Shown here piece after piece: positions 4,020-54,558 of a stretch of DNA of 64,000 bases. The DNA is from Flavobacterium jumunjinense (lineage in GTDB: Bacteria > Bacteroidota > Bacteroidia > Flavobacteriales > Flavobacteriaceae). The notes below the pieces were generated by a model. The model was not told where the DNA came from. It saw only the letters and a list, made by a program, of their open reading frames with translations, and did no database searches. Location of the stretch: assembly GCF_021650975.2 (NCBI RefSeq), contig NZ_CP091285.1, positions 3,162,001 through 3,226,000 of the forward strand. The letters are read 5' to 3'. Both the position numbers and the translations under genes were made by a program. Each line of letters opens with the position of its first letter. Positions within the stretch are counted from its first letter, which is position 1.

Positions 4020-4676
4020 TTATTCTATATTAACAATTTTGTTTTTTATTGCATAAAGGACTAAACCTATTCGAGTTCTTATTTCTAGTTTAGCAAAAAG
4101 ATGCTCTCTATATCCATCTATAGTTTTCGGACTTAGACACATTTCATCTGCAATTTCTTTGTATGTTTTTTCTGTGCAAGCATGTTTTATAAAAATAATT
4201 TCTTTTTCCTTTAATTCAAGTTTGATATTTTTATCATTATCTAATCTGTTAATTAAAAGACCAGAAACTAACTCTGTAAAGAAAAAACCTTTATCGGAAA
4301 CTGTTTTCAAAGCTTCTTCAAAAATTTGTGGGGAAGTATCTTTTAGTAAATAGCCTTTTGCTCCATTTTTCATCATTTTTATAATTGTCTCTTCATCATC
4401 ATTTACAGAAAGGGCAATTACTTTCAATTCTTCTTTGTTAATCTTTATCCATTCCATGGTTTTTAAACCATCCAAAATAGGCATATTAACATCAAGTAAG
4501 ACAATGTCTATAGCATCTAAATCTATCTTATTGGCTGTAACACAATCAATAAAGTCTTTACCATTTTCAAAATTATTAACCACAGTGAAATCTTCGAAAC
4601 TATTAATCAAAAACTTTAGGGATTGTGAAAATAATAAATGATCATCTATTATTATTACTTTGTTTTTAGCTTTCAT
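4020..4676 (-). CDS. NarL/LuxR-family response regulator
   Basis: This 218-residue protein has a receiver domain (residues about 5-125: acidic pair IIDDH near 10-12, phospho-acceptor Asp62 in LLDVNMP, switch region around ALSVNDD, Lys in GYLLKDTSP). A C-terminal LuxR-type helix-turn-helix follows (about 155-215: LKEKEIIFIKHACTEKTYKEIADEMCLSPKTIDGY... pattern). It is a DNA-binding transcription factor controlled by phosphorylation. Its start overlaps the end of the sensor kinase gene by 11 bp, so the two are co-translated partners. Together with the two genes upstream it sits opposite the unusual 6.8-12.8 kb cluster, which it may control; that link is inference. Confidence 0.93.
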   Translation of the reverse strand: MKAKNKVIIIDDHLLFSQSLKFLINSFEDFTVVNNFENGKDFIDCVTANKIDLDAIDIVLLDVNMPILDGLKTMEWIKINKEELKVIALSVNDDEETIIKMMKNGAKGYLLKDTSPQIFEEALKTVSDKGFFFTELVSGLLINRLDNDKNIKLELKEKEIIFIKHACTEKTYKEIADEMCLSPKTIDGYREHLFAKLEIRTRIGLVLYAIKNKIVNIE

Positions 4677-5451
4677 TTTTTTTGTTTAATGTATATTCTA
4701 AAACTAGAATAGTTCCGTTATTGTTTGATTCGATTATTGCATTTGCTCCTATAAGTTTAGCTCTAAATCGAATATTGTTTAGACCTAATCCTTTACTCCC
4801 TTTGTTAACATCAAAACCAACTCCATAGTCTTTCAATTTAATCAATAATTTTTTGTTCTCACAAATAACATCCATTTCTAATTTTTTACTTAATGAATGT
4901 TTTAAACTATTATGTATTGCTTCTTGAAAAATACGATAAAGTATTAACTCATGTTCAACATTAATTTTCGGAAAATTATCTTCATGATTAAAAACACATT
5001 CAATGTTTTTTAACTTTTGAATCCTATCAAAATCATTTTTAATAGATTCTATAAAATTAGTATTAATTAAATTATCTTTATTTATTAATCTCGATAAAAT
5101 TCTAATTTCATCAAGAGATTTTGCTAAAACGTCTTTATGCTCATTTAAATCCTCAACCGTAACTTTATCTTTATCTTTCAAGTAAAGGTTCACTTGCATG
5201 ATAGCAACGGATATTATTTGACCGATATTATCATGTAGTTCTTTACTTATCTCTGTTAGTGTTTGGTCTTTAATTTCAACTCTCGTTTTTATCAGTTCCG
5301 ATTGAAAATGAATTTCTGATTCCATTTTGTCAATAAGAAATTGAGTTTTTTTCTTCTGAAAATAAAAAAATAAAGCAAACAATAATATTAATAATGTAAA
5401 GAATACAATACTAAGGGAAATTACTAATAATTGTATCTCTTCTCTGTCCAT
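4666..5451 (-). CDS. Sensor histidine kinase, NarL-partner type
   Basis: I start this at the ATG at 5451 (MDREEIQLLV), seven codons inside the longest frame, because that leaves a single clean N-terminal membrane helix (residues about 7-31). A short coiled linker leads to a HisKA_3 box with ELHDNIGQI (phospho-His73). An HATPase domain follows with N box (FQEAIHNSLKHS) and G boxes (DYGVGFDV; GLGLNNIRFRAK). Length is 261 residues. There is no sensor domain of its own, so the signal probably comes through the adjacent 7-TM protein, whose gene overlaps this one by 28 bp. The partner is the downstream response regulator. Confidence 0.92.
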   Translation of the reverse strand: MDREEIQLLVISLSIVFFTLLILLFALFFYFQKKKTQFLIDKMESEIHFQSELIKTRVEIKDQTLTEISKELHDNIGQIISVAIMQVNLYLKDKDKVTVEDLNEHKDVLAKSLDEIRILSRLINKDNLINTNFIESIKNDFDRIQKLKNIECVFNHEDNFPKINVEHELILYRIFQEAIHNSLKHSLSKKLEMDVICENKKLLIKLKDYGVGFDVNKGSKGLGLNNIRFRAKLIGANAIIESNNNGTILVLEYTLNKKNES

Positions 5452-6071
5452 ACGAATCCTATTATAAAACAACAGTGCATTAATAAATTTAAAACAAATA
5501 AGACGAAACTATATATAGACTCTACACGTTCAATTAAAAACCAATCAATGGCTAACATAAAAGGTAAAAATGGAAGATGAAACAACAACACTCCAAGTAT
5601 AAACCAAAAATAAATAGAACGTTTAAAGTTTAATATTTTTTCCGAATTAGAAATTTCTATTAAATATAAACAAGATAAAATTAAAACAAAAAACACACCT
5701 AGAGTAAAACTGTTAGTAAAGGTTTGATCTATGTTGTGCTGTATGAGAATGAAATTAATAATGTAAAAAATGATAAATAAAACTAAAAAGCAATTGGCAA
5801 TAACTTTATAAATAATTTTACTTAATAATAATTTTAGTAGGTATATATAATAGAAAAAGCTTATTAATATGTAGAAATTAAAAATGAAATAGTTAATCAT
5901 TCCTGTCCATTTACTGAAATTTATTCCTAAAAATTCAATGACAACAGATAACCAAATCATAATTAAAATAGATTTAGCTTTGTTATTTGGTAGTTTGTGA
6001 TAAAAAAACAAACCAATAATTCCAGATAACAAAGCTAAATAAATAGTATAAAATCTTATGTTTTCTAGCAT
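5424..6071 (-). CDS. Seven-TM membrane protein, likely sensor partner of the kinase
   Basis: I do not recognise a named family. The 215 residues are almost entirely hydrophobic, with about seven membrane helices (near 5-24, 35-50, 60-84, 88-110, 122-142, 150-172, 186-208) and an aromatic-rich composition. There is no catalytic motif. It overlaps the kinase gene and follows a small gene by 3 bp, so it is embedded in a translationally coupled operon. Because the kinase has only one helix and no sensor domain, a role as receptor or membrane anchor for it is plausible, but that is inference from position. Confidence 0.75.
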   Translation of the reverse strand: MLENIRFYTIYLALLSGIIGLFFYHKLPNNKAKSILIMIWLSVVIEFLGINFSKWTGMINYFIFNFYILISFFYYIYLLKLLLSKIIYKVIANCFLVLFIIFYIINFILIQHNIDQTFTNSFTLGVFFVLILSCLYLIEISNSEKILNFKRSIYFWFILGVLLFHLPFLPFMLAIDWFLIERVESIYSFVLFVLNLLMHCCFIIGFVWTEKRYNY

Positions 6072-6074
6072 TTT

Positions 6075-6551
6075 TTAATTTGATGGATAGACCATTTTTG
6101 GAGGGTTTCCCATTGAACCATAGTTCATTGGACTAATTTCATTAATATCATCACTCTGTGCTGAATCATCTTTTGCAACAAAATTTAGTGCTGCACCTTT
6201 CATTGCATCAACCTTTTGACCAGTTGGAGTTAGAAAGATAGTACTTTTTCCAGCTTTTTCAGCATGTTTAGCATCATTAGGATACGAACCAAAATAGAAA
6301 CGAATACCATCAACTTTATAACCTTTTTCATTTCCCTCTTTTTTAATAAAGTTAATATAGTTTTCTAATTCTTCAATAGAATACCAAACCGCATTTGCAT
6401 CATCACTATTTCCATTTTTAGAACTATGATTACTGCTAAGTTGTTTTGCAAAATCTTGTGTTATTAATTGTTTTGGATCTGTCAAGTTAGCATCGAAATC
6501 ATTTAATTGTAGATCAATAGTTTGTAGATCTTCTGATATTAGTTTTTTCAT
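6075..6551 (-). CDS. Conserved hypothetical protein of a flavobacterial two-component cluster
   Basis: The start chosen is the ATG at 6551 (MKKLISEDLQ), preceded by an A-rich leader typical of these genomes. The longer frame adds 20 residues with no ribosome-binding context. The 158-residue protein is soluble, with an Asn/Ser-rich linker around 45-60, then a compact core (YSIEELENYINFIKKEG, YKVDGIRFYFGSYP, TIFLTPTG) and a Pro/Asn-rich tail ending in MNYGSMGNPPKMVYP. I recall similar proteins next to sensor kinases in flavobacteria, but know of no function. It is the first gene of the minus-strand operon that ends with the response regulator. Confidence 0.75.
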   Translation of the reverse strand: MKKLISEDLQTIDLQLNDFDANLTDPKQLITQDFAKQLSSNHSSKNGNSDDANAVWYSIEELENYINFIKKEGNEKGYKVDGIRFYFGSYPNDAKHAEKAGKSTIFLTPTGQKVDAMKGAALNFVAKDDSAQSDDINEISPMNYGSMGNPPKMVYPSN

Positions 6552-6610
6552 AATAGTTTTGATTTTAAATTGATATTGTACAAAAGTATCTCTAAGAAAA
6601 ACGCTATACA

Positions 6611-6740
6611 AGGGGAAAAATACCCTTTTTTTTTAAGTGTTTCCAACTTTTTGTAAGTAGAAATACGATTTACTCCCTTTTTTATATCCTAAAATAAACC
6701 TCGAAATGCCTTGAATAAAAAGGGGTAAAGTACTCTTTTG
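6611..6740. promoter_or_regulatory. Divergent control region with three related pyrimidine motifs
   Basis: The 299-bp gap between the two-component operon and the 6851-12774 cluster holds three similar strings: TACCCTTTTTT (6621-6631), TACTCCCTTTTTT (near 6672-6684) and TACTCTTTT (6731-6739). The first and last are preceded by AGGGG a few bases upstream. They could be operator copies for the neighbouring LuxR-type regulator. I see no perfect TAnnTTTG element here; TATGTTTTG near 6750 is the closest. The role is inferred from repetition and position. Confidence 0.4.
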
Positions 6741-6850
6741 TAGTTTTTTATGTTTTGTCAATTTTACCAAATCAAAATGAGCTCAAAAATTTGATAGGTG
6801 TATCTGAAAAACCTTAAAAGAGTAAGAAAAATTTATTAAGACAATATATT

Positions 6851-7708
6851 ATGAGTTTATATCAAGAAGTTTTTGATGGAGAATCTTTCAGTGAACAAGA
6901 TTATTTTGAAGCAGTTAGATATGTTTTAGGACCTGAATATTCGGATTTAAGTGAGAATGAACTAGAGGATGAATTACTTTCTAGAGTTGATTTAATGTCT
7001 GAAAGTGAAGCAGAAGGTTTTTGGTCAAGTCTTGGAAACGTAGCTAAAAACGTAGGTTCTGGTGTTTTACGCGGTGTTTCTGCAATTGCTCCAATCGCAG
7101 GAACTGCTGTTGGAACCTATTTTGGATCACCTCAAATTGGAGGAGTAGTTGGAGGTTTAGTTGGAAATTTAGCGGGTTCTGCAAGTACAGCTTTGTCTAA
7201 CGTTAACATTCCAAATAGAACACCAAGAAGACAACCAAGACGTTATTCGCATCCTAGACGTCCACAAACACAGCGACCAAATCAATTAGGGCAAACATGG
7301 AGAAACACTACAAACTATCTTGCAAATGCAGGTAGAGCAGTTCTTCCCGCTGTGCAACAATATGCACAAAATAATCCTGTGCGATTGAACCCAAGGACAG
7401 CAAGAGATATCGGACGAGTGCAAGGATTATATAATCAATTAGGAGGTATAATCAATAATCCACAATTTCAAGCTGGTCAGGCACAACAAAATTTAGGAAC
7501 AGCTAGTCCAAATGCACCTATAGAAAGTCATTCATTTGCCGAACTTGTAGAGTCGATTAACTATTTGACTGAGAATATTTTATATGAATATTACAATGAT
7601 GGATTAATTCCAACTGAAGATTATCATATAGATGATTATGGACAGTTTATTGGTTCATATTCTCCTAATAGAATCGATAGAATTGAAAGTGCAATAGCAT
7701 CACTTTAA
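6851..7708 (+). CDS. Acidic / glycine-zipper / arginine-rich protein of unknown function
   Basis: This 285-residue protein has no signal peptide. Residues 1-57 are strongly acidic and end in MSESEAEGFW. Residues about 57-115 form a Gly/Ala/Val-rich stretch with repeated small-xxx-small spacing (VGSGVLRGVSAIAPIAGTAV then GGVVGGLVGNLAGSAS), as in glycine zippers that enter or cross membranes. Residues 120-145 are Arg/Pro/Gln-rich (RRQPRRYSHPRRPQ). The rest is Asn/Gln-rich and ends in an acidic C-terminus. I have a memory of myxobacterial and cyanobacterial proteins with an acidic head, a small helical hydrophobic core and Arg clusters, but no function is known to me. It is the first gene of a cluster that ends with a protease and a hydrolase. 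Confidence 0.75.
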   Translation: MSLYQEVFDGESFSEQDYFEAVRYVLGPEYSDLSENELEDELLSRVDLMSESEAEGFWSSLGNVAKNVGSGVLRGVSAIAPIAGTAVGTYFGSPQIGGVVGGLVGNLAGSASTALSNVNIPNRTPRRQPRRYSHPRRPQTQRPNQLGQTWRNTTNYLANAGRAVLPAVQQYAQNNPVRLNPRTARDIGRVQGLYNQLGGIINNPQFQAGQAQQNLGTASPNAPIESHSFAELVESINYLTENILYEYYNDGLIPTEDYHIDDYGQFIGSYSPNRIDRIESAIASL

Positions 7709-7728
7709 TCTTTTAAAAAAGTATAGTT

Positions 7729-8139
7729 ATGGAAGCGTATATGAAATTATTGAGAGAACAAAACCCTGAAATAGCAAAGTATTTAGATTTAATGCAGCCA
7801 ATGATGGAGAATAAAGAAATTGAAGTTGATGCAATCGTTGAAACTAAAAAAGTAGATCCAGAACTTCAAAATCAAATAAATAAACTCAAAAAGATAAATC
7901 GGAAACTTTTCACAATAGTTGAAGGCTTAAAAGTACAATTAGAATTAGAACTAAATCAAAATGATGATTTGGCAAAAGCTATAGGAGCTTGTCTAGAGTG
8001 TTTTGGGGAAAATTCTGAGTGTTCTGAATGTTTTGGAACAGGAAAACCAGGTGTCGCTATTCCCGATTTTATTTTGTTCAATAAATATATAAATCCTGCT
8101 ATACAAAAATATAATAAACATTATTTCAACAAAAATTAA
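7729..8139 (+). CDS. Small coiled-coil protein with DnaJ-like CxxC pair
   Basis: This 136-residue protein is soluble. A Lys/Glu/Leu-rich coiled-coil segment runs roughly from 43 to 83. Next comes a CX2C-X6-CX2C motif (ACLECFGENSECSECFGTG), whose second half, CxxCFGTGKPG, resembles a DnaJ zinc-finger repeat and probably binds one zinc ion. The C-terminal 30 residues are aromatic and basic. It begins 21 bp after the previous gene and is probably co-transcribed with it. I do not recognise the family. A role in holding or folding the neighbouring low-complexity proteins would fit the DnaJ-like motif, but is a guess. Confidence 0.7.
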   Translation: MEAYMKLLREQNPEIAKYLDLMQPMMENKEIEVDAIVETKKVDPELQNQINKLKKINRKLFTIVEGLKVQLELELNQNDDLAKAIGACLECFGENSECSECFGTGKPGVAIPDFILFNKYINPAIQKYNKHYFNKN

Positions 8140-8169
8140 AAACAATAATAACAATTAAAAATTAAAATT

Positions 8170-8880
8170 ATGTACGAATTTGAAAATTATTTAGACGAAG
8201 ATTTGTTAAATGAAGATCTATTAAGCGAGGATTTATTAGAAAGTTTTGATGAAGATTTCGATGAAGCAAAAAGAAGAGGCGGAAGAAGGTTTGGTAGAAT
8301 TAGACCAACTGTTAGACCACGAGTAAATCAACAATCTAATTTTGGTAAATCATTAAGCGGAAGTGCTCGTGATTTTGCAACAAAGAGCGATTTAAAAAAA
8401 GCATTAGACACTATTTCGAGTGATGTTAATGAGTTGAAAAAAACTTCAATTTCAACAAATAAAGCACTTTCAGCTTTAGATGGAAAACACACAGAATTAG
8501 CAAAATTAGATGCTAGAAAAAATGATAACCAGACCAAGGTACTTCGTAATATGCAAATGATGAATATGATGGGGTCATTATTGAATCAGCCAAAATTGAA
8601 AACAGAGAATTTAGAAATTATTCAAATTAAGGACAAAGAAGGACAAATAATTTCGGAAAAAATTCAAGAAGTGAATGGTAAAAAAGCAATTGAAGTAGAT
8701 CAAACGATGTCGTTAATGTTACCAATGATGACAACAATGGGAGATTCTTCAACTGGTAAATCAGACAATAACATGATGCTACCATTAGTTTTAATGATGA
8801 GTCAAAACAAAGATAATAGCAGTGATAATAACACAATGCTACCTTTAATGATGATGATGATGATGCAAAATCAGAAATAA
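8170..8880 (+). CDS. Acidic-head, methionine-rich-repeat protein of unknown function
   Basis: The 236-residue product has three distinct parts. Residues 1-33 are acidic with a repeated [N/S]EDLL unit (DEDLLNEDLLSEDLLESFDE). An Arg-rich patch follows (AKRRGGRRFGRIRP), echoing the acid-then-arginine layout of the protein from 6851. A middle region of about 65-130 looks like a coiled coil. The C-terminal 60 residues hold three imperfect copies of a Met-rich unit (MSLMLPMMTTMG; NNMMLPLVLMMS; NNTMLPLMMMMMM) spaced by Asp/Ser/Asn runs. There is no signal peptide. Met-rich surfaces can bind Cu(I) or form hydrophobic contacts, but I make no functional claim. A terminator-like hairpin follows. Confidence 0.72.
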   Translation: MYEFENYLDEDLLNEDLLSEDLLESFDEDFDEAKRRGGRRFGRIRPTVRPRVNQQSNFGKSLSGSARDFATKSDLKKALDTISSDVNELKKTSISTNKALSALDGKHTELAKLDARKNDNQTKVLRNMQMMNMMGSLLNQPKLKTENLEIIQIKDKEGQIISEKIQEVNGKKAIEVDQTMSLMLPMMTTMGDSSTGKSDNNMMLPLVLMMSQNKDNSSDNNTMLPLMMMMMMQNQK

Positions 8881-8889
8881 GAAATGTAT

Positions 8890-8925
8890 AAAAAGGGTGA
8901 TAATCTTTTTATTACCCTTTTTTTA
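8890..8925 (+). terminator. Hairpin terminator or attenuator inside the unusual cluster
   Basis: AAAAGGGTGATAA pairs with TTATTACCCTTTT (one G-U pair) and is followed by a T run, directly after the Met-rich gene. All downstream genes are on the same strand, so it probably lowers transcription of the distal genes or marks the end of a three-gene unit. Confidence 0.75.
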
Positions 8926-8948
8926 TTTAATCATAAAAAATAGAAACT

Positions 8949-9458
8949 ATGAATCCAATGAATATGATTATGAACTATCTAATTGCAGAAAGTAGATCGA
9001 AATACTACAATGTAACAGATAAACAAAAAGTTCAAACAACTGCGCTATTAATGGGAGCAATTTCTCAAAATACTATGGTTGATTATTTGATTATTGAAAA
9101 TCAAGCAAAAAGCCTTCAGGCAAAGAACATTGAAGTGGTAGAAGTTATAGATATTTCGGATGGTTCTGGAAATTCAAATACAGATTCAAACGCAAATAAC
9201 TCTACGCAAAACACAGTTAAAATTAAAGAACTAAATGAAAAATTTGAAAAACTAAGAGAAACAATAGAGCAAAATGCAAAACAGGTTACTATGGTAAATA
9301 ATAGCTTAGAAGAAATAAAAAGTAAACTGGTGCATTTAACCGATAAAATCACTTCTAATGAAAGTGAAATAAAGGAAATTTCATTGAGAGTAACTAAGCT
9401 ACACGCTCCTTTAGAAACAACTGTACCTATTGTAAAACCAAAAACTAAAAGAAAATAA
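8949..9458 (+). CDS. Coiled-coil protein of unknown function
   Basis: This 169-residue protein is soluble and carries no signal peptide. Residues 1-55 are Met/Asn/Ile-rich and probably helical. Residues 65-85 are a low-complexity Ser/Asn/Thr linker. Residues about 90-150 form a long amphipathic coiled coil (IKELNEKFEKLRETIEQNA pattern; SLEEIKSKLVHLTDKITS). The tail is basic (KPKTKRK). Such an architecture suits oligomerisation or a structural role. It ends 1 bp before the next start codon, so the two genes are translationally coupled. I do not recognise a family. It opens the distal half of the cluster, after the internal hairpin. Confidence 0.7.
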   Translation: MNPMNMIMNYLIAESRSKYYNVTDKQKVQTTALLMGAISQNTMVDYLIIENQAKSLQAKNIEVVEVIDISDGSGNSNTDSNANNSTQNTVKIKELNEKFEKLRETIEQNAKQVTMVNNSLEEIKSKLVHLTDKITSNESEIKEISLRVTKLHAPLETTVPIVKPKTKRK

Positions 9459-9459
9459 T

Positions 9460-9846
9460 ATGCAAACAGTAGATATAAACATTGAAGATATAAAAAAGCA
9501 AAATGAAAAAATCTTAAAAAAGCTGAATGAAGTTTATCCTGAACTAAAATTAACAGCTAATGCAAAAAGAGAACGAATTAAATTCTTTGATCATTTTTTT
9601 TTAAAATACATAAATATCCTTGAGATTAAAGAAGATATCAAATACATACTTACACATAAAAATAAGGAAGAGCTTTTAACAAAAGAGGAGATTGATGAAG
9701 TTGAAACTATAGAAGCTTTTTTTGAAAGTGATTTTTATGCTGAACTTACAAGAAAATCAACCCGTTTTTTTATGCATAGAGAATTTGTCTTGATACCTAT
9801 AATTATTGGTAATCTGAACACTATTAAGTATAAATTAAAAGAATAA
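9460..9846 (+). CDS. Small charged helical protein of unknown function
   Basis: The 128-residue product is rich in Lys, Glu and Ile and is probably all-helical, without membrane segments or a signal peptide. Features include an N-terminal DINIEDIKKQNEKILKKLNE heptad stretch and aromatic patches (KFFDHFFLKY, RFFMHREFVL). No catalytic motif is visible and I do not recognise it. It is squeezed between the coiled-coil gene (1-bp gap) and the protease gene (3-bp gap), so it is likely made in step with the protease. A chaperone, inhibitor or adaptor role for the protease would be a reasonable test, but the sequence itself does not show it. Confidence 0.68.
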   Translation: MQTVDINIEDIKKQNEKILKKLNEVYPELKLTANAKRERIKFFDHFFLKYINILEIKEDIKYILTHKNKEELLTKEEIDEVETIEAFFESDFYAELTRKSTRFFMHREFVLIPIIIGNLNTIKYKLKE

Positions 9847-9849
9847 ATC

Positions 9850-11526
9850 ATGGATCCAAGACTCAAAATAATACTTTACGGAAACCCAGAGGAAGAGTTG
9901 TCATTATTAATGAGATTGGAAAATCAACAATTTATTCCTCAAAACTGTAAAATCATTTCCCAATTTGATGATATAGTTAGTTGTAGAATTAAAAGAAAGC
10001 ATCTTGATAGTGTTTATAATAGTAAAGAAGTGAAAAGCTTAAAAGCACCAAATGTTGTTCCAGCGGATGATTATTTTAATGACAATCAAATAAAATATAA
10101 TTATAACAACCATAATTCAGAATCAGATAGTATTACCTCTAATGTTGTTTTTGGAGTGATAGATTTTGGTTTTGACTTTACACATGAAGATTTTATTGAT
10201 AATGGTAAATCTAGAATTGAAAAAATATGGGTTCAAACAGGTCAATATACTCAACCTAATAAATATGGTTACGGAAAATACATAAATAAACATCAACTAA
10301 ACGCGGCATTAAAAGATAAATTGCCATTTAAAAAACTTGGATACCATCCTGGAATAACCGATTTGTTTGGTACAGGAACACATGGTACACATGTTTTAGG
10401 AATTGCTTGTAGTAATGGAAAAGTGGCAAAAAAAGGATTTGCTTCTAACTCTCCAATTATTGCAGTAGATATGGGATCAAACTTAGTTAATGGTTCTAAT
10501 TTATCGTTGGGAGATTCTGTGAAATTAGTCGAAGGATTAGATTTTATATTGAATGAAGCTGGAAATAGACCTGTAGTGATTAATATGAGCCTTGGAGGAC
10601 ATGGAGATGCTCATACAGGAAAAACGTTAGTGGAACAAGCAATAGATACTATTCTTATTGAAAGAAAAGGAACCGCAATTGTTCAAAGTACTGGAAATTA
10701 TCATCAGGCTAGAGCACACACTTTTGGAGATATCAAAGAAAATGAAAAAATAAATATTCCATGGTTGTTTAAGAAAAGAGACCAAACACCTAATGAATTA
10801 GAAATTTGGTACGGTGGCAATGATGTAATGACTGTGAATATTATAGACGATAAAGGAGAAATGCTACTAGAATCTATTCCTTTTGAAGATGAAATTATAA
10901 AAAGTAATAATGATGAAGTAGGAATATGTTTGCATCGAGAAAAAGAACCAAATACAGGTAAAAATCACATCAATATTTTAATCAATGGGAAACAAAAATC
11001 TAAATTTTGGACGATTGAATTAGTAGGAAAAAAAATAAAAGACGGAAGGTATCATTGCTACATTGAAAGAGACGATAAAGGGCAATCTATTTTTTTACCC
11101 AATATTGTGCAACAAACACACACTACAAATTCCATTTGTAACTCGAAATACAGTATTGTAGTTGGTGCTTATAATCAATTAGAAAAAGACAAACCAATTC
11201 TACCTTTTAGTAGTTCTGGACCAACAGTAGATGGGAGAATGAAACCAGAACTGATTGCTCCTGGCTATAAAATAAAATCTTCTTGTTCTGCATCTTCAAG
11301 AGACTCAAAAGCGAGTCATAAGTTGACATCTAAGAGTGGCAGTAGTATGGCTGCTCCTTATGTTGCTTCTCTTATTGTGAAAATTTTAGAAAAAGAACCT
11401 CATTTAAACATTCTACAAATTAGAAAGAAATTATTTCATTCTTGTGATCCTTTTCAAGTAAAAGAAAGTCAACTGGAGATATATAGAGCTGGAAATGGAT
11501 ATGTAAATCCAAAGAAAATAATTTAA
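9850..11526 (+). CDS. Subtilisin-like serine protease (S8) without signal peptide
   Basis: This 558-residue S8-family peptidase has a complete catalytic triad: Asp105 in GVIDFGFDFTHEDF, His178 in GTHGTHVLG and Ser499 in SGSSMAAPY, plus oxyanion Asn283 in STGNYH. The N-terminal 70 residues have no secretion signal and start MDPRLKIILYGNPEEEL, resembling a short propeptide-like domain. An insert of about 60 residues between Asp and His, and a domain of about 140 residues between Asn283 and the SSSGPTVDGRMKPE segment, make it longer than plain subtilisin. It is predicted to be cytosolic or released by a non-Sec route. It lies 3 bp after the small helical gene and 15 bp before the SGNH hydrolase gene, which suggests a shared task. 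Confidence 0.9.
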   Translation: MDPRLKIILYGNPEEELSLLMRLENQQFIPQNCKIISQFDDIVSCRIKRKHLDSVYNSKEVKSLKAPNVVPADDYFNDNQIKYNYNNHNSESDSITSNVVFGVIDFGFDFTHEDFIDNGKSRIEKIWVQTGQYTQPNKYGYGKYINKHQLNAALKDKLPFKKLGYHPGITDLFGTGTHGTHVLGIACSNGKVAKKGFASNSPIIAVDMGSNLVNGSNLSLGDSVKLVEGLDFILNEAGNRPVVINMSLGGHGDAHTGKTLVEQAIDTILIERKGTAIVQSTGNYHQARAHTFGDIKENEKINIPWLFKKRDQTPNELEIWYGGNDVMTVNIIDDKGEMLLESIPFEDEIIKSNNDEVGICLHREKEPNTGKNHINILINGKQKSKFWTIELVGKKIKDGRYHCYIERDDKGQSIFLPNIVQQTHTTNSICNSKYSIVVGAYNQLEKDKPILPFSSSGPTVDGRMKPELIAPGYKIKSSCSASSRDSKASHKLTSKSGSSMAAPYVASLIVKILEKEPHLNILQIRKKLFHSCDPFQVKESQLEIYRAGNGYVNPKKII

Positions 11527-11541
11527 TAAACAAAATGAAAC

Positions 11542-12774
11542 ATGGAAAATTATAGTATACAATCAACACAAGAAAATCAAAAGTCATATAATAAACAAAG
11601 AACAACTTCTATAAGTAATAGTGTTGGAATCAATGCAGTAAATAACTCAAATGACGTTGCAATAATTCAAAGATTATTAATAAACAAAGGATATTCTCTT
11701 AGTGAAAATGGTCATATTAACGCCATTCAATCTGATCCTACAATAGTATCCATTTTAAACTTTCAATCGAATAACAGTTTAAGGATTACGGGTAATATCT
11801 ATCCAAATGACGATACATTTAAACATCTGAATTTGAATCATAATCCACAAAATAGTACAGAAAGTGATGATGAATCGGTACATCAACCATTTGCAACTAA
11901 TGCTTTTTTCTTCAGACGAAAAGCAAATAATGCAAATACTTTGAATGTTATTTTTGAAGGAGATTCTTGGTTAGATTATCCAGTACCAAGAGTTTTAGAT
12001 TTATATGATACAATAAGTGATAGGAACCAACGATTAAATTTAAATACACTTCATTTAGCTAAATTTGGAGAGACTACTTCAGATATGTATAGAGATAGAT
12101 CAAATTTTATACAATATATTTCGAATTATAGAATTGATAGAATCTATTTCAGTGGTGGTGGAAATGACGTTTTTCCTAAATTAGATAGAATTGTTAAAAG
12201 TACGCACACAACTTTTCAAGACAATTTCTTTACAAATGCATCTAAATTAGCAGAATTGAGAACACTTTCTGGAGATGCTCTAAAAAGAAAATGCATACAG
12301 TATAGAAGGTATTTAAATACAACAGTGTTTGATAATGCAATATTTAACAGAACAAACTTAAATTCAATTTTCGGAAGTGTGTACCAAAACTATATGTCTT
12401 TTGGAGCAATTGTTAACGCCCACACAAGTGAGAGAACACGTTTTTATATGCACACTTACGATTATCCAATGTTTAAACTAGGAGTCAAGCCTTCTCTAGC
12501 GGGTGTTAGTCTACCATTAGGTCCTTGGGTACAACCTGTTTTTGATCAATATCGAATTACAGATGACATTTTGAAAGCGTATATTATCATTCGATTATTA
12601 GATAAATTCTATTACTTATTACGATATATTAAAAGTAAATTCAGTGAAAGATTTCGTTTTCAGACAGAAATTATAAACTTTAGAGGTGTTTTAAATGATT
12701 CTCGCTATTGGAGAGACGAAATTCATCCAAATTCTGATGGGGCTAGAAGATTAGCTACACGCGTTAATTTTTAG
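11542..12774 (+). CDS. Peptidoglycan-binding domain + SGNH/GDSL hydrolase
   Basis: This 410-residue protein has an N-terminal peptidoglycan-binding-1-like domain (about 30-95: NDVAIIQRLLINKGYSL...ILNFQSNNSLRITG pattern). An SGNH hydrolase domain follows, with block I GDSW (Ser142), block III GGGND (Asn208) and block V DEIHP (Asp392, His395). SGNH enzymes hydrolyse ester bonds, for example acetyl groups on glycans or lipids; cell wall or surface glycan is a natural substrate given the binding domain. There is no signal peptide. It is the last gene of the cluster and is followed by a strong terminator. Co-occurrence with an unsecreted protease suggests release by lysis or by an unusual exporter; that is inference. 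Confidence 0.85.
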   Translation: MENYSIQSTQENQKSYNKQRTTSISNSVGINAVNNSNDVAIIQRLLINKGYSLSENGHINAIQSDPTIVSILNFQSNNSLRITGNIYPNDDTFKHLNLNHNPQNSTESDDESVHQPFATNAFFFRRKANNANTLNVIFEGDSWLDYPVPRVLDLYDTISDRNQRLNLNTLHLAKFGETTSDMYRDRSNFIQYISNYRIDRIYFSGGGNDVFPKLDRIVKSTHTTFQDNFFTNASKLAELRTLSGDALKRKCIQYRRYLNTTVFDNAIFNRTNLNSIFGSVYQNYMSFGAIVNAHTSERTRFYMHTYDYPMFKLGVKPSLAGVSLPLGPWVQPVFDQYRITDDILKAYIIIRLLDKFYYLLRYIKSKFSERFRFQTEIINFRGVLNDSRYWRDEIHPNSDGARRLATRVNF

Positions 12775-15222: not shown

Positions 15223-16698
15223 TTATTTCTTGTTATTAAAAAACCTTTTTAACTCACTAGTAATACGGTTCGCTTTTATTTTTTTTCCTTTGTATGTTCC
15301 TTTAGATATGTTGATTGGCTTATATTTTTGATATTTAATACCAAAGTTTTCATTCCAATAGCCATATTTTAAAGTCTCTTCACTATCAATTTTTGGAAAT
15401 ACAAAAGTAGAATTCGTTATTGCATTTATAGTTTCTTCATGAGATGTTGGAATATAAAAACAATTCAATTTCTCATATGCAGCTCTTCCTAATAGAATCA
15501 CATTTTTGCCAGCAAACGCTGCTTCTGCACCAACCGTAGAACCAAATACAACTATAATATCACTTTTGTTGATTAAAGCATAAGTATCTACGCTATCTTC
15601 TGCTCCAATAATTTCTATACTATCAATTGTCTTTAATTCTTCTTTTATAAATTTATTCTGAGCATTATCAATACCTTTTAAATTAGGATGTATCCTAAGA
15701 TATAGTTTTATATTTTCATGAGCTGAAAGAGATTGGGCAATCTGTTTAATTCCTAAATTATCGTTTTCATAAAAATAAGGACCAAACCCTTCTAAACCTT
15801 CATATTCATCTAATGAAGAATTAAAAATAGTGATGACTTTTTTACCTTCATTATGTTTAAAACTTTCAGGTAGTCGACCTTCTTGCTGCTCTTTTGTGAA
15901 TGAATACCAAGCGTCTTCAACACGTTCTATTCTATTGGTATAAAAGCGTTTTCCGATCTCATTTTTATCATCTTCTGCGTTTTTCCATAAAGATTCCATT
16001 TCCTTACTTACAGTTTCAATTGAATGCGGAATTGAATTTTCTCTAAATAAGAAAGTATTTAATTTACCACCTCTTTCATGAGTAGCATATTTAATATTAT
16101 TTTGTTGACAAGTACGTAATAATGGACGATTTTCAACAAAACGACCATTAAAAAAGATTACTAAATCTGGATTAATGCTTTTCGTTATTGTATTAAAAGT
16201 TTCAAACAAATAAGCTCCCGTTTTAATACCATCTGCAATAAAATTTTGATGATTATCTAATTTAGGTTCATGATCTCTAGTAAATGATACTAAAGAAGAA
16301 GCTGTTGCCATACCTAAATCATAATCATTATAAGAGTAACTTTTTAATTCTTGAATAGATTTGAAATCAAGTTTTAAATTTTGTTTCGATACATATTCTT
16401 CAAACTTTAAATAATTTGAATATTCAATAATAATTAAATTTTCTGGATTTTTAGCGTTTTTTTTAACTTCTTGAATTCCCTTTTTTTCTCTAGAAATACA
16501 AACATTACAAATCCATTTATCATGTGTAGGATTGTTAAAACAGACTTTGAAATCTTTCTTACAAACTAACCAATAGATGGTATTGTTTTGTGCTAATAAT
16601 CGTTCTGCAATTTCCATTTCCGTTTCTAAATGTGGAGTAGGGTGGAAAGAACTTTGTATTAGTATGGTTTGATTGTGTATCGTATCGAGTGGATTCAT
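15223..16698 (-). CDS. Capsule/LPS-type glycosyltransferase, candidate nonulosonic acid transferase
   Basis: This 491-residue protein has no signal peptide. The C-terminal half shows a GT-B-like nucleotide-sugar-binding pattern as in capsule polysaccharide biosynthesis proteins (YLRIHPNLKG near 325; SDIIVVFGSTVGAEAAFAGK near 375-395). The N-terminal half has WLVCKKDFKVCF and CNVCIS cysteine pairs. Being the last gene of an operon that makes a CMP-activated nonulosonic acid, it is a good candidate for the enzyme that transfers that sugar to a surface glycan. That role is inferred from position only. It starts 3 bp after pseI ends, so expression is coupled. Confidence 0.75.
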   Translation of the reverse strand: MNPLDTIHNQTILIQSSFHPTPHLETEMEIAERLLAQNNTIYWLVCKKDFKVCFNNPTHDKWICNVCISREKKGIQEVKKNAKNPENLIIIEYSNYLKFEEYVSKQNLKLDFKSIQELKSYSYNDYDLGMATASSLVSFTRDHEPKLDNHQNFIADGIKTGAYLFETFNTITKSINPDLVIFFNGRFVENRPLLRTCQQNNIKYATHERGGKLNTFLFRENSIPHSIETVSKEMESLWKNAEDDKNEIGKRFYTNRIERVEDAWYSFTKEQQEGRLPESFKHNEGKKVITIFNSSLDEYEGLEGFGPYFYENDNLGIKQIAQSLSAHENIKLYLRIHPNLKGIDNAQNKFIKEELKTIDSIEIIGAEDSVDTYALINKSDIIVVFGSTVGAEAAFAGKNVILLGRAAYEKLNCFYIPTSHEETINAITNSTFVFPKIDSEETLKYGYWNENFGIKYQKYKPINISKGTYKGKKIKANRITSELKRFFNNKK

Positions 16699-16700
16699 TT

Positions 16701-17738
16701 TTATTGTATAAAGTCTAAAGACATTGGTGTTCCTTTTTCTAATTTTTGATTGGCTTTTTTTCCTAAAATGCCATTGAAATGCTTAGGATGTAAACCAAAA
16801 CCAGGACGAACAGAACGCAAATTACTTTCTGTAAACACTTCTCCTTCAGTAATATTTTCTGCAATGTATAAAGAACGGCTAAAGTCTTTTCCTTTAGCTT
16901 GTTTTTCTGTTAAAGTATAATCAACATTTCCTACAGCTTTTTCAGCCTCACGAACAGCTTTAACCATTGCTGTGAATTCTTCTTCGTTCATTGAAAAAGA
17001 AGCATCTGGTCCACCAATACTTCTATCCAGAATAAAATGTTTTTCAATAATTTTTCCACCTAAAGCTGTTGCCACAATTGGAACAGTTGCGCCCATAGTA
17101 TGATCGGATAAACCAGAAATGACATTAAATCGTTCTGCTAAATCTTTTATCATACTCATATTTGCTTCTTCAACAGGAGCTGGATAACTTGACGTACATT
17201 TTAATAACGCAATATCATGATTGCCAACGCGCTTACAAGCTTCAACAGCTAGCTCAATATCAGCCAATTCAGCTATTCCTGTAGATATAATAATAGGCTT
17301 CATTTTAGAAGCTGCATATTCAATCAAAGGAATATCAGTTATCTCGAAAGATGCAATTTTATAAGCAGGAGTATTCAAGTTTTCTAAATAATCGACAGCT
17401 GTTTTGTCAAAAGGAGATGAAAAACAAATTAAGCCTTCAGCTTCAGCCGCTTTGTAAATTTGTTCATGCCATTCCCAAGGCGTATATGCTTCTTTGTATA
17501 AATCGTATAGTTTTCTTCCATCCCAAATTGTACCTTTAATTACAAAATCAGGTTTGTCAGAATCTAGTGTAATAGTTTCGGCAGTATAGGTTTGCAATTT
17601 TATACAGTTGGCACCAGCTCTTTTTGCTGCTTTTACAGTTTCTAAAGCGGTTTCTAAACTTCCGTTATGATTGGCTGACAATTCTGCAATAATGAATACT
17701 GGAGAATTTTTATGTATTTCGAAATTTGCTATTTTCAT
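16701..17738 (-). CDS. pseI: Pseudaminic acid synthase (NeuB/PseI family)
   Basis: The 345-residue protein has the NeuB-family TIM barrel (residues about 1-280: IIAELSANHNGS near the N-terminus; NCIKLQTYT; SDHTMGATVP; IIEKHFILDRS) and a C-terminal antifreeze-like SAF domain (about 285-345: RSLYIAENITEGEVF, RSVRPGFGLHPKHF). It condenses phosphoenolpyruvate with a 2,4-diacetamido-hexose to form the nine-carbon sugar acid. The context of PseB, PseC and a PseH-like acetyltransferase favours pseudaminic acid over sialic or legionaminic acid. Its start overlaps the end of the GNAT gene by 4 bp (ATGA). Confidence 0.92.
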   Translation of the reverse strand: MKIANFEIHKNSPVFIIAELSANHNGSLETALETVKAAKRAGANCIKLQTYTAETITLDSDKPDFVIKGTIWDGRKLYDLYKEAYTPWEWHEQIYKAAEAEGLICFSSPFDKTAVDYLENLNTPAYKIASFEITDIPLIEYAASKMKPIIISTGIAELADIELAVEACKRVGNHDIALLKCTSSYPAPVEEANMSMIKDLAERFNVISGLSDHTMGATVPIVATALGGKIIEKHFILDRSIGGPDASFSMNEEEFTAMVKAVREAEKAVGNVDYTLTEKQAKGKDFSRSLYIAENITEGEVFTESNLRSVRPGFGLHPKHFNGILGKKANQKLEKGTPMSLDFIQ

Positions 17739-18751
17739 TTTTTAAATATATAATGATAACTAGTATGATTTTGATATTCCAAAACAATATCTAATTGATA
17801 ACCTGCTTTTTTAAAAGACTTTTCTGAAGCTTTATTTTCTAATTTAATATAAGCACTAATGGTATAATTTGGATTCTCTTCTATAAATTGTTTTGAAGCG
17901 ATTGCTAACATTTCATTCGCATATCCTTTTCCTCTATGATCTTTATCGTTTGAAATTCCGATTATAGCAATTTTATCGTCTTGTTTTTGAATACGAACTT
18001 GACCAATTGGTTGCTTCAAATGATTTTCAAATACATACATAGCACAAGAATCGTCTTTTATTTTAGCTAAAAACCATTTGCTATGATTTTCTAACGAAAT
18101 AACTTCTGATTGATAAGAATTTTCTCTAACCGAAGTATCGTTTGTCCAATCAAAATATAACATTAAATCATCTGTATTCGCTTTTCTTAAGCTAACATTA
18201 CGGTTCATTTTAGCATGATAAACAACATCTAAATGCTTTCCATTAAAAAAACAATGCTCCTTTAATCGCGCTTCTTCTTTAAATCCGCAACTTTCTAAAG
18301 TTTCATATAAATGCGGTCGTAAATCAAATGCATAAGTAAATATTTTATGAAAATTTAAAGTTTCAAACGCTATTTTTTCAAGTAAATTAAGATAATTAGA
18401 CCAATATTTTGAAAAATGTTCTTTTTCCAATTCAGTTTTCATTACAAATGAAATCTCTGCATTTTTATCAATCCAATTGATATGTACTAAACCACCATAA
18501 CCTATAAATTCATTGTTTTCAAAAAATGAGAACAATAATTGACTTGGTTTTTCAACTTCAAATAAAGCAGAAATAACAGTAGAAAAATATTGTTCTTGTT
18601 TCTCTTTGGTTAAAGGTTCAGTTTGTCTTAAATGAAATAATTGTGAGTTACGAATGTCTAAAATAGCGTATTTGTCTTCATCACGAATGGGTTCGATATG
18701 AAAACCATCCGCGTGAAAAAGGTTGTTTGTTAAACATTTGTATTTTCTCAT
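17735..18751 (-). CDS. Two-domain GNAT acetyltransferase (PseH-like C-terminus)
   Basis: The 338-residue protein contains two GNAT-type acyltransferase domains in tandem. The first (about 12-175) resembles the RimJ/RimL group. The second (about 182-338: SLRKANTDDLMLYFDWTNDT, QPIGQVRIQKQ, acetyl-CoA loop DHRGKGYANEML) resembles PseH, which acetylates the 4-amino group of the altrosamine intermediate. The operon position between the cytidylyltransferase fusion and pseI fits. The extra N-terminal GNAT domain occupies the place where some organisms have a PseG-PseH fusion, but it shows no PseG (GT-B hydrolase) motif. Its acceptor is unknown and could be a second amino group. Confidence 0.85.
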   Translation of the reverse strand: MRKYKCLTNNLFHADGFHIEPIRDEDKYAILDIRNSQLFHLRQTEPLTKEKQEQYFSTVISALFEVEKPSQLLFSFFENNEFIGYGGLVHINWIDKNAEISFVMKTELEKEHFSKYWSNYLNLLEKIAFETLNFHKIFTYAFDLRPHLYETLESCGFKEEARLKEHCFFNGKHLDVVYHAKMNRNVSLRKANTDDLMLYFDWTNDTSVRENSYQSEVISLENHSKWFLAKIKDDSCAMYVFENHLKQPIGQVRIQKQDDKIAIIGISNDKDHRGKGYANEMLAIASKQFIEENPNYTISAYIKLENKASEKSFKKAGYQLDIVLEYQNHTSYHYIFKK

Positions 18752-18752
18752 T

Positions 18753-20846
18753 TTATAACAACTTTCTAAATACAGCTTTTGCTGGACTTCCTTTTAATAA
18801 ACCTTCGTATCCTTCTTTTAGGGCTTGTTGGTACACTTTGATACTTTCGCTAAATGCCTTTGCAAAATAATAAATATCTTCTTCGGTATGAGAAAAACAA
18901 GGAACAAAAACACCTTGAAATAGTATACCACGACGAATCATTTCTTGTAAAAATAACGTTCTAAATCCTTGACATGCTTGCTTGTTTTGATCTTTGAATA
19001 CGAAAACAGGCATCCACACAGAAGGCATAATATTGATATAATCGTTAAGATTATTTTCCTGAATTAATTGGCTACATAAATCAATTAATTTTTTACCTAA
19101 AGCGTGATTGTGTTCGATTACATTATTGTTTTTAAACACATCAATTGTAGCAATTGCAGCAGAAAGTCCGTGGGTTTCTCCCCCATGAGTAGTTGAGATT
19201 AAAAATACTTTTTCTTCACCTTCACGAGTAATTCCACCTAATTCCATGATTTCTTTTTTACCTGTTAAGGCACAAAATGAAAATCCGTTGGCAATTCCTT
19301 TTCCCCATGTTGCCATATCTGGTGTAATTCCATATTTTGTAATTGTTCCAGGAAATTCAGTTTTGAATCCTGTTACCATTTCATCTGCAATAAATAAAGC
19401 TCCATTAGCATGACACAGTTCGATAGCTTGTTTTAAGTACTCTTCATTAGTATTCTCACAAGTACAATTCGCACATTGATTCTTTTCTGGTTCAGAAATT
19501 ACACAAGCAATTTGGTCTGGATATTTTTCAAATAGCTCTTTTAATGATTGAATACTACAACCTTTAAAAGTTACTGATAATTCGGAAATTTCATCTGGAA
19601 CTCCTTTATTACAAGCCGTTTTACCAATAAACCAATCATCATAGCTATAAAAAGGATGATCTCCAGGGAAGGCTACCAATTTTCTACCGGTATGTGCTCT
19701 TGCTAATTTAACTGCAGCAGTTGTTACGATAGATCCGTTTTTGGAAAACTTAATCATATCATGACCTGGAACTAAATCTAAGAATTTTTCTGCAATTTCT
19801 TTTTCTAAATGAGAAGGTCTTTGAAAATTGACACCATTGTTTAATTCGCTTTTTACAGCTTCTACAACAGAATCATACGCATGACCTAAACTTACACTTG
19901 TTAATCCCATAGAACAATCTAAAAATTGATTGTCATCTACATCCCAAACGTAAGCTCCTTTTCCTTTTACGATAGCTGCTGGAGAAAGAATTGGGAATTG
20001 GTCATCACCTTTAGAATAGGTATGACATCCACCAGGAATTAATTGATGAATCGTTTTTCTATATTCGTCTGAAGCAACAAAATTAGTAATGTTGCGTAGT
20101 TTTATTTCTTCAAATTTACTTTTCATATAACCTTGATTTCTAATTATAGAACCATTTATTTCTTTTATTTTTGGATTATTTAAAATATAATCCGCATATA
20201 TTTCCCAAGATTGATTTGCTCCTAAAGTTTCAATTAAGTGCTCAATTACATTAAAATCTAAAACTTCATCAACTGTAATTCTTATTTTTGAATACTTTTC
20301 ATCGATTAAATCATTTGAATATTGAGATAAATCTACTTTTCGTCTGATATAAGGTGTAACATGTTCTCTATCTGCTTTTAAAATCGCATTTTCCCAAGCT
20401 TCTTCAAGCTTTTTAAAAGAAAAAACTTCAACATCTAATCCGTCAGGGTATTTATCTTCAAAGACATTAGAAAAATAATCTAATTTATTAGAAATACAAA
20501 ATTGAACCGTTTCATCAATTAATGTAGCATCAATCAAAGGACAATCGGAAGTTACTCTTACCACATAATCTGCATTTTCATCTTTTACAGCTTGATAAAA
20601 ACGATCTAATACATCGTCTAAACTTCCTTTATAAAATTGCAAATTTACTTTGGTTGCAATATCACAAATAGCATCCGATTCTGCTTCATTTGTTGTAGCA
20701 ACTATCCAGTTATTAACGAATTGCGATTGTTTAATTCGTTCTAAATGATACTCTAAAAGTGTTTTATCTTTAATTTTAAGTAACACTTTTTTAGGTAATC
20801 TTGATGAACCTATTCTTGCTTGTGTTATGCCAACTATTTTTACCAA
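18753..20846 (-). CDS. Fusion: SpsF-like CMP-sugar cytidylyltransferase + glutamate-1-semialdehyde-type aminotransferase
   Basis: The 697-residue product joins two enzymes. Residues 1-245 are an SpsF-type nucleotidyltransferase (GITQARIGSSRLPKKVLLKI; VVRVTSDCPLIDATLID). It would activate the nonulosonic acid with CMP, the PseF role. Residues about 260-697 are a class III PLP aminotransferase of the glutamate-1-semialdehyde 2,1-aminomutase group (GGCHTYSKGDD, SMGLTSVSLGHA, IADEMVTGFKTEFPG, PLP-Lys in MATWGKGIANGFSF, and a CANCTC insert near 455). The aminotransferase implies an extra amination beyond canonical pseudaminic acid synthesis. It overlaps the aldo/keto reductase gene by 7 bp. Confidence 0.88.
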   Translation of the reverse strand: MVKIVGITQARIGSSRLPKKVLLKIKDKTLLEYHLERIKQSQFVNNWIVATTNEAESDAICDIATKVNLQFYKGSLDDVLDRFYQAVKDENADYVVRVTSDCPLIDATLIDETVQFCISNKLDYFSNVFEDKYPDGLDVEVFSFKKLEEAWENAILKADREHVTPYIRRKVDLSQYSNDLIDEKYSKIRITVDEVLDFNVIEHLIETLGANQSWEIYADYILNNPKIKEINGSIIRNQGYMKSKFEEIKLRNITNFVASDEYRKTIHQLIPGGCHTYSKGDDQFPILSPAAIVKGKGAYVWDVDDNQFLDCSMGLTSVSLGHAYDSVVEAVKSELNNGVNFQRPSHLEKEIAEKFLDLVPGHDMIKFSKNGSIVTTAAVKLARAHTGRKLVAFPGDHPFYSYDDWFIGKTACNKGVPDEISELSVTFKGCSIQSLKELFEKYPDQIACVISEPEKNQCANCTCENTNEEYLKQAIELCHANGALFIADEMVTGFKTEFPGTITKYGITPDMATWGKGIANGFSFCALTGKKEIMELGGITREGEEKVFLISTTHGGETHGLSAAIATIDVFKNNNVIEHNHALGKKLIDLCSQLIQENNLNDYINIMPSVWMPVFVFKDQNKQACQGFRTLFLQEMIRRGILFQGVFVPCFSHTEEDIYYFAKAFSESIKVYQQALKEGYEGLLKGSPAKAVFRKLL

Positions 20847-21688
20847 TTTGCAGGATTTAATAATTCTTTATTTGTAACCTTAATAGCACTTATTGCTTCA
20901 AAAATGGAGTTATCTAAATTCCAATTATTAACAGCATTGATATTGTCTGTCAGTTGTTTTTCATTTTCAACACCTATAACTACTTTGTCGATGTTTTTAT
21001 TCAAACAGGCAAAGTTTAGCGCTAAATCGGCTATGCTTATTTTATACTGATTTGCAATTTCTTTTAGCTGATTTAATTCTGCTTTTAAAGGTATTAATTT
21101 TTCTGGTAAGGATTCTGTATTTAAAAAATATAAACCTTGTAAAAAGACAGAACGACAATGTATTTCAATATTTTTATTCTTTAACTCCTCAAAATATGGA
21201 GTGAACTTTTGATCTAATAGACTAAAAGGAATTTGAATGATATCTGGAATTAAATCCAATTGTAATAATGCCTCTAATTGTTTTGGAGTATATAAAGAAT
21301 AACCTATTTTCTGTACTTTATTCTTTTCTTTAAAATTAACTAAAGTTTCCCATAATTTCAGATTTTCAATTAAAAAATCACCATTATGAGCCATAAAACC
21401 ATATAAACGATCTTGTTTTAATCTTATGATGGAACGTTCTATGTTTTCTTTTAATTCTGAATTTGAACTATATTTTGGGAATTTAGAAATAATTTGAGCT
21501 TCATTAGGTAAAAAATCAGCAATTCGTTCTTCTGCATTACCATAAGCAATTGCAGTATCGAAAGTGAGTATATTGTTTTTTACAGCAGTTTCAAAAATTT
21601 GTGATACATCCAAATCCGTAGGAACTCCTTTGGTATTAGAAATTCCATATTGTAAGCCAAACTGAACGGTTCCTAAGGCAAGTTTCAA
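20840..21688 (-). CDS. Aldo/keto reductase of the nonulosonic acid operon
   Basis: This 282-residue protein is an aldo/keto reductase. The catalytic tetrad is visible as Asp and Tyr in FDTAIAYGNAEE, Lys in IISKFPKYS and His in YGFMAHNGDF. The NADPH-binding end (IADLALNFACLNKNIDKVVIGVENEKQL) is typical. The family reduces carbonyls with NADPH. In Sps-like clusters it accompanies the SpsF/aminotransferase gene, so it may reduce or epimerise a sugar intermediate. It lies 2 bp after pseC and overlaps the fusion gene by 7 bp. The substrate is not deducible from sequence. Confidence 0.87.
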   Translation of the reverse strand: MKLALGTVQFGLQYGISNTKGVPTDLDVSQIFETAVKNNILTFDTAIAYGNAEERIADFLPNEAQIISKFPKYSSNSELKENIERSIIRLKQDRLYGFMAHNGDFLIENLKLWETLVNFKEKNKVQKIGYSLYTPKQLEALLQLDLIPDIIQIPFSLLDQKFTPYFEELKNKNIEIHCRSVFLQGLYFLNTESLPEKLIPLKAELNQLKEIANQYKISIADLALNFACLNKNIDKVVIGVENEKQLTDNINAVNNWNLDNSIFEAISAIKVTNKELLNPANW

Positions 21689-21689
21689 A

Positions 21690-22874: not shown

Positions 22875-22878
22875 TTAA

Positions 22879-54556: not shown

Positions 54557-54558
54557 GT

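Follow-up and report, generated by a model that had tools for sequence, protein, structure and literature searches.

A patchy Flavobacterium gene cassette, with a Csp-like protease and candidate peptidoglycan-directed cargo, whose regulators appear to be shared with some eCIS operons

Seven genes in a 64-kb stretch (hereafter the window) of a 4.67-Mb contig form a cassette that, judged from sequence, appears to be a new kind of system, lying outside the eCIS, phage and defence classes; its mechanism is a proposal. We give about even odds (a probability of roughly 0.5) to the reading that this is a signal-triggered cassette whose products, lacking signal peptides, build a cytoplasmic package directed against peptidoglycan, and that it is regulated like an eCIS and built otherwise. 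By cassette genes, the host's nearest relatives are Flavobacterium. The seven reading frames (g1 to g7, window positions 6851 to 12774) and the compositions given to them in the original prediction were confirmed in place, and we add an eighth gene, orph, which faces g1 (Table 1). A search confined to open-access papers found no description of the cassette.

Table 1. Features of the cassette, its promoter region and the facing regulatory genes, in window positions.
Feature	Position	Strand	Description
Response regulator	4020..4676	-	end of LuxR type, judged by eye; closes the module; 16/16 loci; 65-72% identical in 5 further module loci
Sensor histidine kinase, HisKA_3	4666..5472	-	Pfam 7.7e-07, over cut-off; 16/16 loci
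7-TM-like membrane protein	5424..6071	-	probable sensor; ~7 segments; 62 hydropathy windows >1.6; 15/16 loci
orph	6075..6551	-	158 aa; no named family; module marker; 15/16 loci
Inverted repeat AAGGGGAAAAATACCCTT	6610..6627		putative operator; sole match in window, 0.00 expected
Second conserved promoter block GGGGTAAAGTACTCTTTTGTAG	6722..6743	+	from alignment of 17 promoters
g1	6851..7708	+	285 aa; starts acidic, then Gly/Ala-rich, then an Arg-rich stretch; putative scaffold protein; 16/16 loci
g2	7729..8139	+	136 aa; helical start, CxxC-CxxC zinc-finger-like end; best core marker; 42 relatives
g3	8170..8880	+	236 aa; starts acidic, then an Arg-rich stretch and a coiled coil; Met/Leu-rich towards its end; 16/16 loci
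g4	8949..9458	+	169 aa; conserved first part (16/16 loci) and coiled coil
g5	9460..9846	+	128 aa; small charged protein, lineage-specific; tblastn match in 1/16 loci
g6	9850..11526	+	558 aa; Csp-like S8 protease, Asp105/His178/Ser499; Pfam 1.2e-32; Csp proteases are top PDB matches
g7	11542..12774	+	410 aa; cargo enzyme: PG-binding ~25-100, acidic linker 107-116, SGNH esterase 131-410

Ten proteins were compared with Pfam, and two of them exceeded its cut-offs, g6 (Peptidase_S8) and the kinase; g1 to g5 match no named family above cut-off in libraries that include Pfam, NCBIfam and PHROGs. The g1 protein has a net charge of -15 over residues 1-60 and +10 over residues 118-175, the g2 motif is CxxCxG...CxxCxGxG, and methionine makes up 22 of the 236 residues of g3. 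The predicted structure of g1 (pLDDT 47.6) is too poor to be suited to structure search. Low-complexity matches to ATG16, SMC, tape measure, LeoB and LmuB proteins were attributed to sequence composition and coiled coils, and set aside. By a crude hydropathy test, in which no 19-residue window of g1 to g7 exceeds a Kyte-Doolittle value of 1.6, none of the seven has a Sec or transmembrane signal, in agreement with what had been predicted, and a hydrophobic start is absent from 120 relatives of the S8 protease.

A scan of species genomes with an SGNH profile yielded 16 loci, 15 of them named Flavobacterium and one [Flexibacter] sp. Species that carry the cassette include Flavobacterium aquidurense and F. 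resistens. When the window proteins were used in tblastn searches, g1, g2, g3, g6 and g7 were found in all 16 loci at 62-76% identity, and are therefore more than chance neighbours. The cassette faces the same regulators throughout the 16 Flavobacterium loci fetched, and a gene resembling apt (named by eye) lies no more than two genes from 13 of 17 cassettes when the window is counted, the exceptions being the window, L010, L020 and L021. Distribution is patchy, with the SGNH gene present in 4 of 150 relatives, host included. Among 299 family genomes g1 occurs in five (three strong matches, one of them the host's own, plus two near 5e-4), and among 296 phylum genomes in six, all weak except the host. 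Over 395 phylum genomes, both g2 and a g6 search at 1e-40 recovered the host alone. An empty-site comparison identified no cassette-free site, relatives of the downstream gene being at most 38% identical. As far as these comparisons go, the cassette block is patchy and relocating. In L015 a VgrG-like gene, recognized by eye, follows the cassette end (downstream of 11240).

The catalytic triad of the protease, originally described as intact, shows no change in 120 of 121 aligned sequences, and the remaining one is gapped at this point. By sequence, the closest solved relatives are Csp germination proteases (3.7e-22 to 2.1e-21). Two matches bear on whether g6 might have the jellyroll insert found inside the Csp protease domain: that to 9pr8 is continuous over 87-482 and so takes in the stretch from His to Ser, and that to 4i0w is interrupted between 302 and 435. 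Scores against the NCBIfam models CspBA (110.7 bits, cut-off 1250) and CspC (90.4 bits, cut-off 675) both fall far below threshold. One study (PMC3567191) reports that the cortex hydrolase SleC cannot be cleaved efficiently without CspB activity, and that the Csp prodomain remains bound and blocks the active site. The cassette resembles the Csp/SleC pair in that a soluble, sequence-related S8 protease accompanies a PG-binding cell-wall enzyme, but the host is by its genus not a spore former, and an SGNH esterase takes the place of SleC. We know of no counterpart of g1 to g5 in the Csp/SleC system of Clostridium spores.

Although g7 matches PG_binding_1 and GDSL only below the Pfam threshold, its identification as an SGNH hydrolase held up. 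The GDS, G, N and DxxH blocks of SGNH/GDSL enzymes are all present in g7 and are kept in 68, 68, 68 and 66-67 of 68 sequences (Ser142, Gly176 and Asn208 in every one, Asp392 in 66 and His395 in 67), and a model with mean pLDDT 73 gives residues 131-410 an SGNH/GDSL esterase fold. Among SGNH/GDSL esterases this domain stands apart as a sequence subfamily of its own, below the Pfam cut-off and joined to a PG-binding domain, a DUF2272 domain or both; six relatives carry DUF2272. The LPS deacylase AOAH is among the fold matches of the model, and substrates of SGNH enzymes include lipids and other sugars.

The original prediction listed the SGNH gene among the seven; comparison across loci places it, like g5, outside the core. 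L034 has proteins with sub-threshold PG_binding matches; in Cupriavidus a PG_binding domain is fused to the S8 protease; Amidase_2, PF11860 or trypsin domains occur in four S8 relatives among the matches listed; and the Neptunitalea-like locus L035 has no cargo enzyme. Searches of solved structures with g2 and the L034 cargo proteins returned only a match of PG-binding length to 4nso. On this comparative evidence, the SGNH gene is optional cargo, and elsewhere other proteins, often of predicted peptidoglycan-directed function, adjoin the protease or are fused to it.

The core consists of g1, g2, the S8 protease and usually g3, and is found in four phyla in total: it is carried on Cupriavidus, Gemmatirosa and Streptomyces plasmids and by two other Flavobacteriaceae, apparently Flaviramulus sp. 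BrNp1-15 and Neptunitalea lumnitzerae. Identities in these two are 46 and 43% for g1, 35 and 32% for g2, 50 and 47% for g3, and 53% in both for S8, with related regulators opposite and no SGNH gene at either locus. The conserved co-occurrence proposed as a check on the prediction was thereby found in 16 of 16 loci, two more genera and three plasmids from three other phyla.

For the plasmid survey, which covered 16 S8 loci, HMMs were trained on Flavobacteriaceae rows only. The g2 HMM detected three loci, in Cupriavidus (1e-19), Gemmatirosa (5e-16) and Streptomyces (6e-10), and these are exactly the three of 16 in which the S8 match begins at residue 1 or 2 of the query. The g3 HMM matched in Cupriavidus (1.8e-11) and Streptomyces (2.5e-5), and the g1 HMM matched weakly in all three (1.8e-6 to 6.5e-3); in Cupriavidus this g1 match is a second, separate copy, and the g1-like gene next to g2 was matched by eye and by profile comparison. 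Shuffled decoys in an earlier HMM run gave no g1, g2 or g3 matches. Profile comparison of near with far rows gave 98.6% for g2, 97.2% for g3 and 96.2% for g1, the last over 49 columns only. The relatives of g2 in a large protein set comprise 31 close and 11 far sequences. HMMs for g4 and g5 found no far relatives, and g4 resembles, by eye only, the gene that precedes S8 in Cupriavidus and Streptomyces.

Several other gene groups came to light in these searches. Weak g1 matches in other Bacteroidota were rejected as cassettes, since g2 and g3 are absent there by HMM, and the clusters concerned are kept as a lead only. They encode acidic "EFE" proteins with a Gly-rich stretch (L037 9140-9853, L038 9131-11031, L039 9186-9989), accompanied by a HEVGHQ metalloprotease-like protein and an amidohydrolase; a sigma-54 activator is found in L037 and L039, and an eCIS core domain in L039. 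These loci are perhaps another undescribed cluster. The Streptomyces S8 protein (L043 8992-11946) has a C-terminal part that matches no Pfam family and looks beta-rich by eye. S8 genes on rhizobial plasmids (L068-L077) adjoin phospholipase D-like or MBL-fold, caspase and CHAT genes.

The genes facing the cassette were originally regarded as a private histidine kinase, response regulator and 7-TM operon, and this part of the claim fell: in five of five relatives examined that have the module without the SGNH gene, other payloads accompany it. The orph reading frame, which extends to 6611 (178 aa) if a TTG start is used, is present in 6 of 60 relatives, host included, and all five non-host genomes have orph, 7-TM protein, kinase and regulator together at 42-72% identity. 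Among the 16 cassette loci, L010 alone lacks the 7-TM and orph genes, and its regulator and kinase are 46% and 33% identical to those of the window. What adjoins the module differs between genomes. In G006 it is a protein 86% identical to the PG_binding and Muramidase protein of G015; in G015, that protein itself (Muramidase 1.4e-63) with proteins of 671 and 717 aa; in G032, a caspase (6.1e-31), a trypsin-like protein, two proteins of 515 and 582 aa and, at 62%, a muramidase relative; and in G013, a relative of the 515-aa protein (87%), a 589-aa protein and an Amidase_2 and SH3 protein. In G024 the module lies on the same strand as an eCIS operon and ~125 bp after it, an operon with sheath, CIS_TMP (6.3e-93), eCIS_core (6.9e-33) and AAA ATPase genes. 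By these neighbourhoods the regulators are a portable module, shared in Flavobacterium with one eCIS operon. In G006 and G015 the module sits, by eye, between the apt-like gene and, farther away, a gene that flanks 11 of 17 cassettes, and these flanks, shared with the cassettes, indicate one chromosomal place with different payloads. The 515-aa (87% alike) and 582/589-aa proteins make up an unnamed payload family (L088 10517-16990 and L090 10211-15719), accompanied by caspase, trypsin-like, muramidase or amidase genes.

Alignment of cassette promoters revealed an inverted repeat, AAGGGG-N5/6-[A/C]CCCTT, in 15 of 17, the promoters of L010 and L020 being those without it. When 14 chosen genomes were scanned, 23 rows were returned that represent 17 distinct sites, because palindromes are counted twice, against 3 for a reversed control pattern. 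Thirteen of the 17 sites are at a module or an eCIS operon (two each in the host, G006 and G024, and one each in G053, G054, G075, G015, G032, G013 and G344). Elsewhere, G006 has a further site 73 bp before a patatin-like gene (2e-21), and the sites on G013 C4, G015 C1 and G344 C2 have no assigned payload. G323 has a cassette and no site; G010, G036 and G045 have no repeat, and G010 and G036 also lack orph.

Both repeat copies in the host genome lie beside modules. The second fronts a diverged module (L092 7911-13792; C1 near 2849100) that comprises regulator and kinase at 43% and 28% identity, two orph-like genes and a membrane-like gene; opposite, across the repeat, are a DUF2589 gene (6.4e-25) and two genes without a name. 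By eye, it occupies the chromosomal place of the L010 cassette. The G024 eCIS site, identical to the cassette site of L011, lies ~120 bp upstream of a gene that is itself followed by the sheath gene. The G006 counterpart stands 160 bp upstream of a Pvc16_N gene (6.6e-35), after which come sheath and baseplate genes. Among the five sheath loci of G000, G024 and G006, two have the repeat nearby and three do not. The N5 spacer was admitted after the G024 eCIS site had been seen, and the G006 eCIS site was found later; with a fixed 22-base pattern, the G024 eCIS promoter scored no better than shuffles (26/100). The repeat is probably an operator common to the cassette and some eCIS operons in Flavobacterium.

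We propose that the membrane proteins and the kinase sense an envelope cue, upon which the regulator would act through the repeat on the divergent promoter, and likewise on the eCIS operons that carry it. The acidic, basic, Gly-rich and coiled-coil parts of g1, g3 and g4 could, together with g2, form a scaffold. The protease might be restrained by its own N-terminal part until a trigger leads it to cut either the scaffold or the cargo, the acidic linker ahead of the SGNH domain being one possible site. Once free, the cargo enzyme would hold on through its PG-binding domain and de-esterify or open peptidoglycan. Exit from the cell might be by lysis or through a breach made by the package. The target could be neighbours or the producer; we lean toward neighbours, with a few producers lysing to reach them. 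In this scheme the binding of the regulator, the assembly of the parts, the cutting of cargo, the release and the target are all inferred from sequence. No immunity gene was recognized by family, and g5 and orph remain candidates.

Rival readings differ chiefly in what is attacked, if anything. The envelope alarm might instead lead the producer to open its own wall, releasing other goods or stopping an infection, as the lack of an export signal in any of the proteins and the caspase, trypsin-like protein and muramidases beside the G032 module would allow. However, a membrane lies between cytoplasm and wall, so peptidoglycan enzymes that are not exported need a holin-like step, and none was identified; we regard self-directed lysis or cell death as unlikely, though the strongest of the rivals. 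A harmless internal assembly, or a wall-remodelling stress response of the producer, would kill nothing. Two-component control and low-complexity proteins suit a stress granule or storage body, and the want of a recognized immunity gene fits as well, but exchangeable cargo, patchiness (4/150), and a switch and sites common to eCIS are unusual for housekeeping, which makes this account improbable.

We think it very improbable that the products serve as accessory effectors of an eCIS or T6SS whose genes lie elsewhere and which would take them up. The module and repeat are common to eCIS operons, and the host has a CIS-like cluster (L078 755-10645; C1 about 2346755-2356645) with a sheath match (2.2e-7) and tube-, PAAR- and gp25-like genes by eye. 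That cluster has no repeat, and among six cassette genomes the sheath family occurs in one and VipB in none. Slightly less probable again is anti-phage defence using a subtilase: g6 matches the PADLOC "subtilase" (3.8e-21) and, weakly, IetS (1.4e-4), matches attributable to its S8 domain, but g2, g3, g7, orph and the 7-TM protein have no PADLOC match at 0.01, those of g1, g4 and g5 are weak, and the block contains no ATPase partner. Generic subtilase and weak IetS or coiled-coil matches were all that PADLOC returned, with no complete gene set. A phage or prophage remnant, to which a single weak PHROG tape-measure match of g1 (3.9e-4) might point, or a chance neighbourhood, we count as refuted by the preservation of the block in all 16 loci. 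Searches of 50,697 phage records gave nothing for g1 and the SGNH protein and, for S8, partial matches of 25-32% in five; a scan of viral contigs with S8 found none.

The expectation that the content would match no phage tail or eCIS was likewise sustained, there being no phage relative of g1 or the SGNH protein and no eCIS structural family. The likeness to eCIS lies in the module beside one eCIS operon, the repeat before two, and the absence of signal peptides; unlike an eCIS, g1 to g7 match no family for a sheath, a tube or a baseplate when compared with Pfam, NCBIfam and PHROGs, weak matches of g1 and g4 aside. Polymorphic toxin and effector systems have a conserved carrier with variable fused or adjacent toxin domains; here S8 would be the carrier and the variable domains beside or fused to it candidate toxins, but the cassette has no recognized immunity gene, and its cargo is mostly wall-directed or unnamed. 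That the system is undescribed still stands as regards its unnamed g1 to g5 and their co-occurrence elsewhere, and needs amending as regards the regulators, which are not private, and the SGNH gene, which is replaceable.

More tentatively than the central proposal, we suggest a class of contact-free weapon or lysis machine that is not derived from a phage tail, in which a scaffold of g1 to g4 would carry a Csp-like protease and exchangeable peptidoglycan enzymes; in Flavobacterium the switch, operator and chromosomal site would be interchangeable with those of eCIS, caspase/muramidase and DUF2589 payloads, as one envelope-alarm regulon. If so, four phyla or more possess a wall-attacking system not made from a phage tail, and the site on the DNA together with its sensor module marks when Flavobacterium may turn on eCIS-type payloads. 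The repeat could also serve as a simple genome search for more unknown payloads.

Elsewhere in the window are genes, identified by eye, for synthesis of sialic-type sugars for surface glycans (15223-23889) and a two-ORF look-alike of an IS3-type transposase (54164-55395), together with an Rfam group II intron match at 61960-62036 (47.4 bits, cut-off 40).
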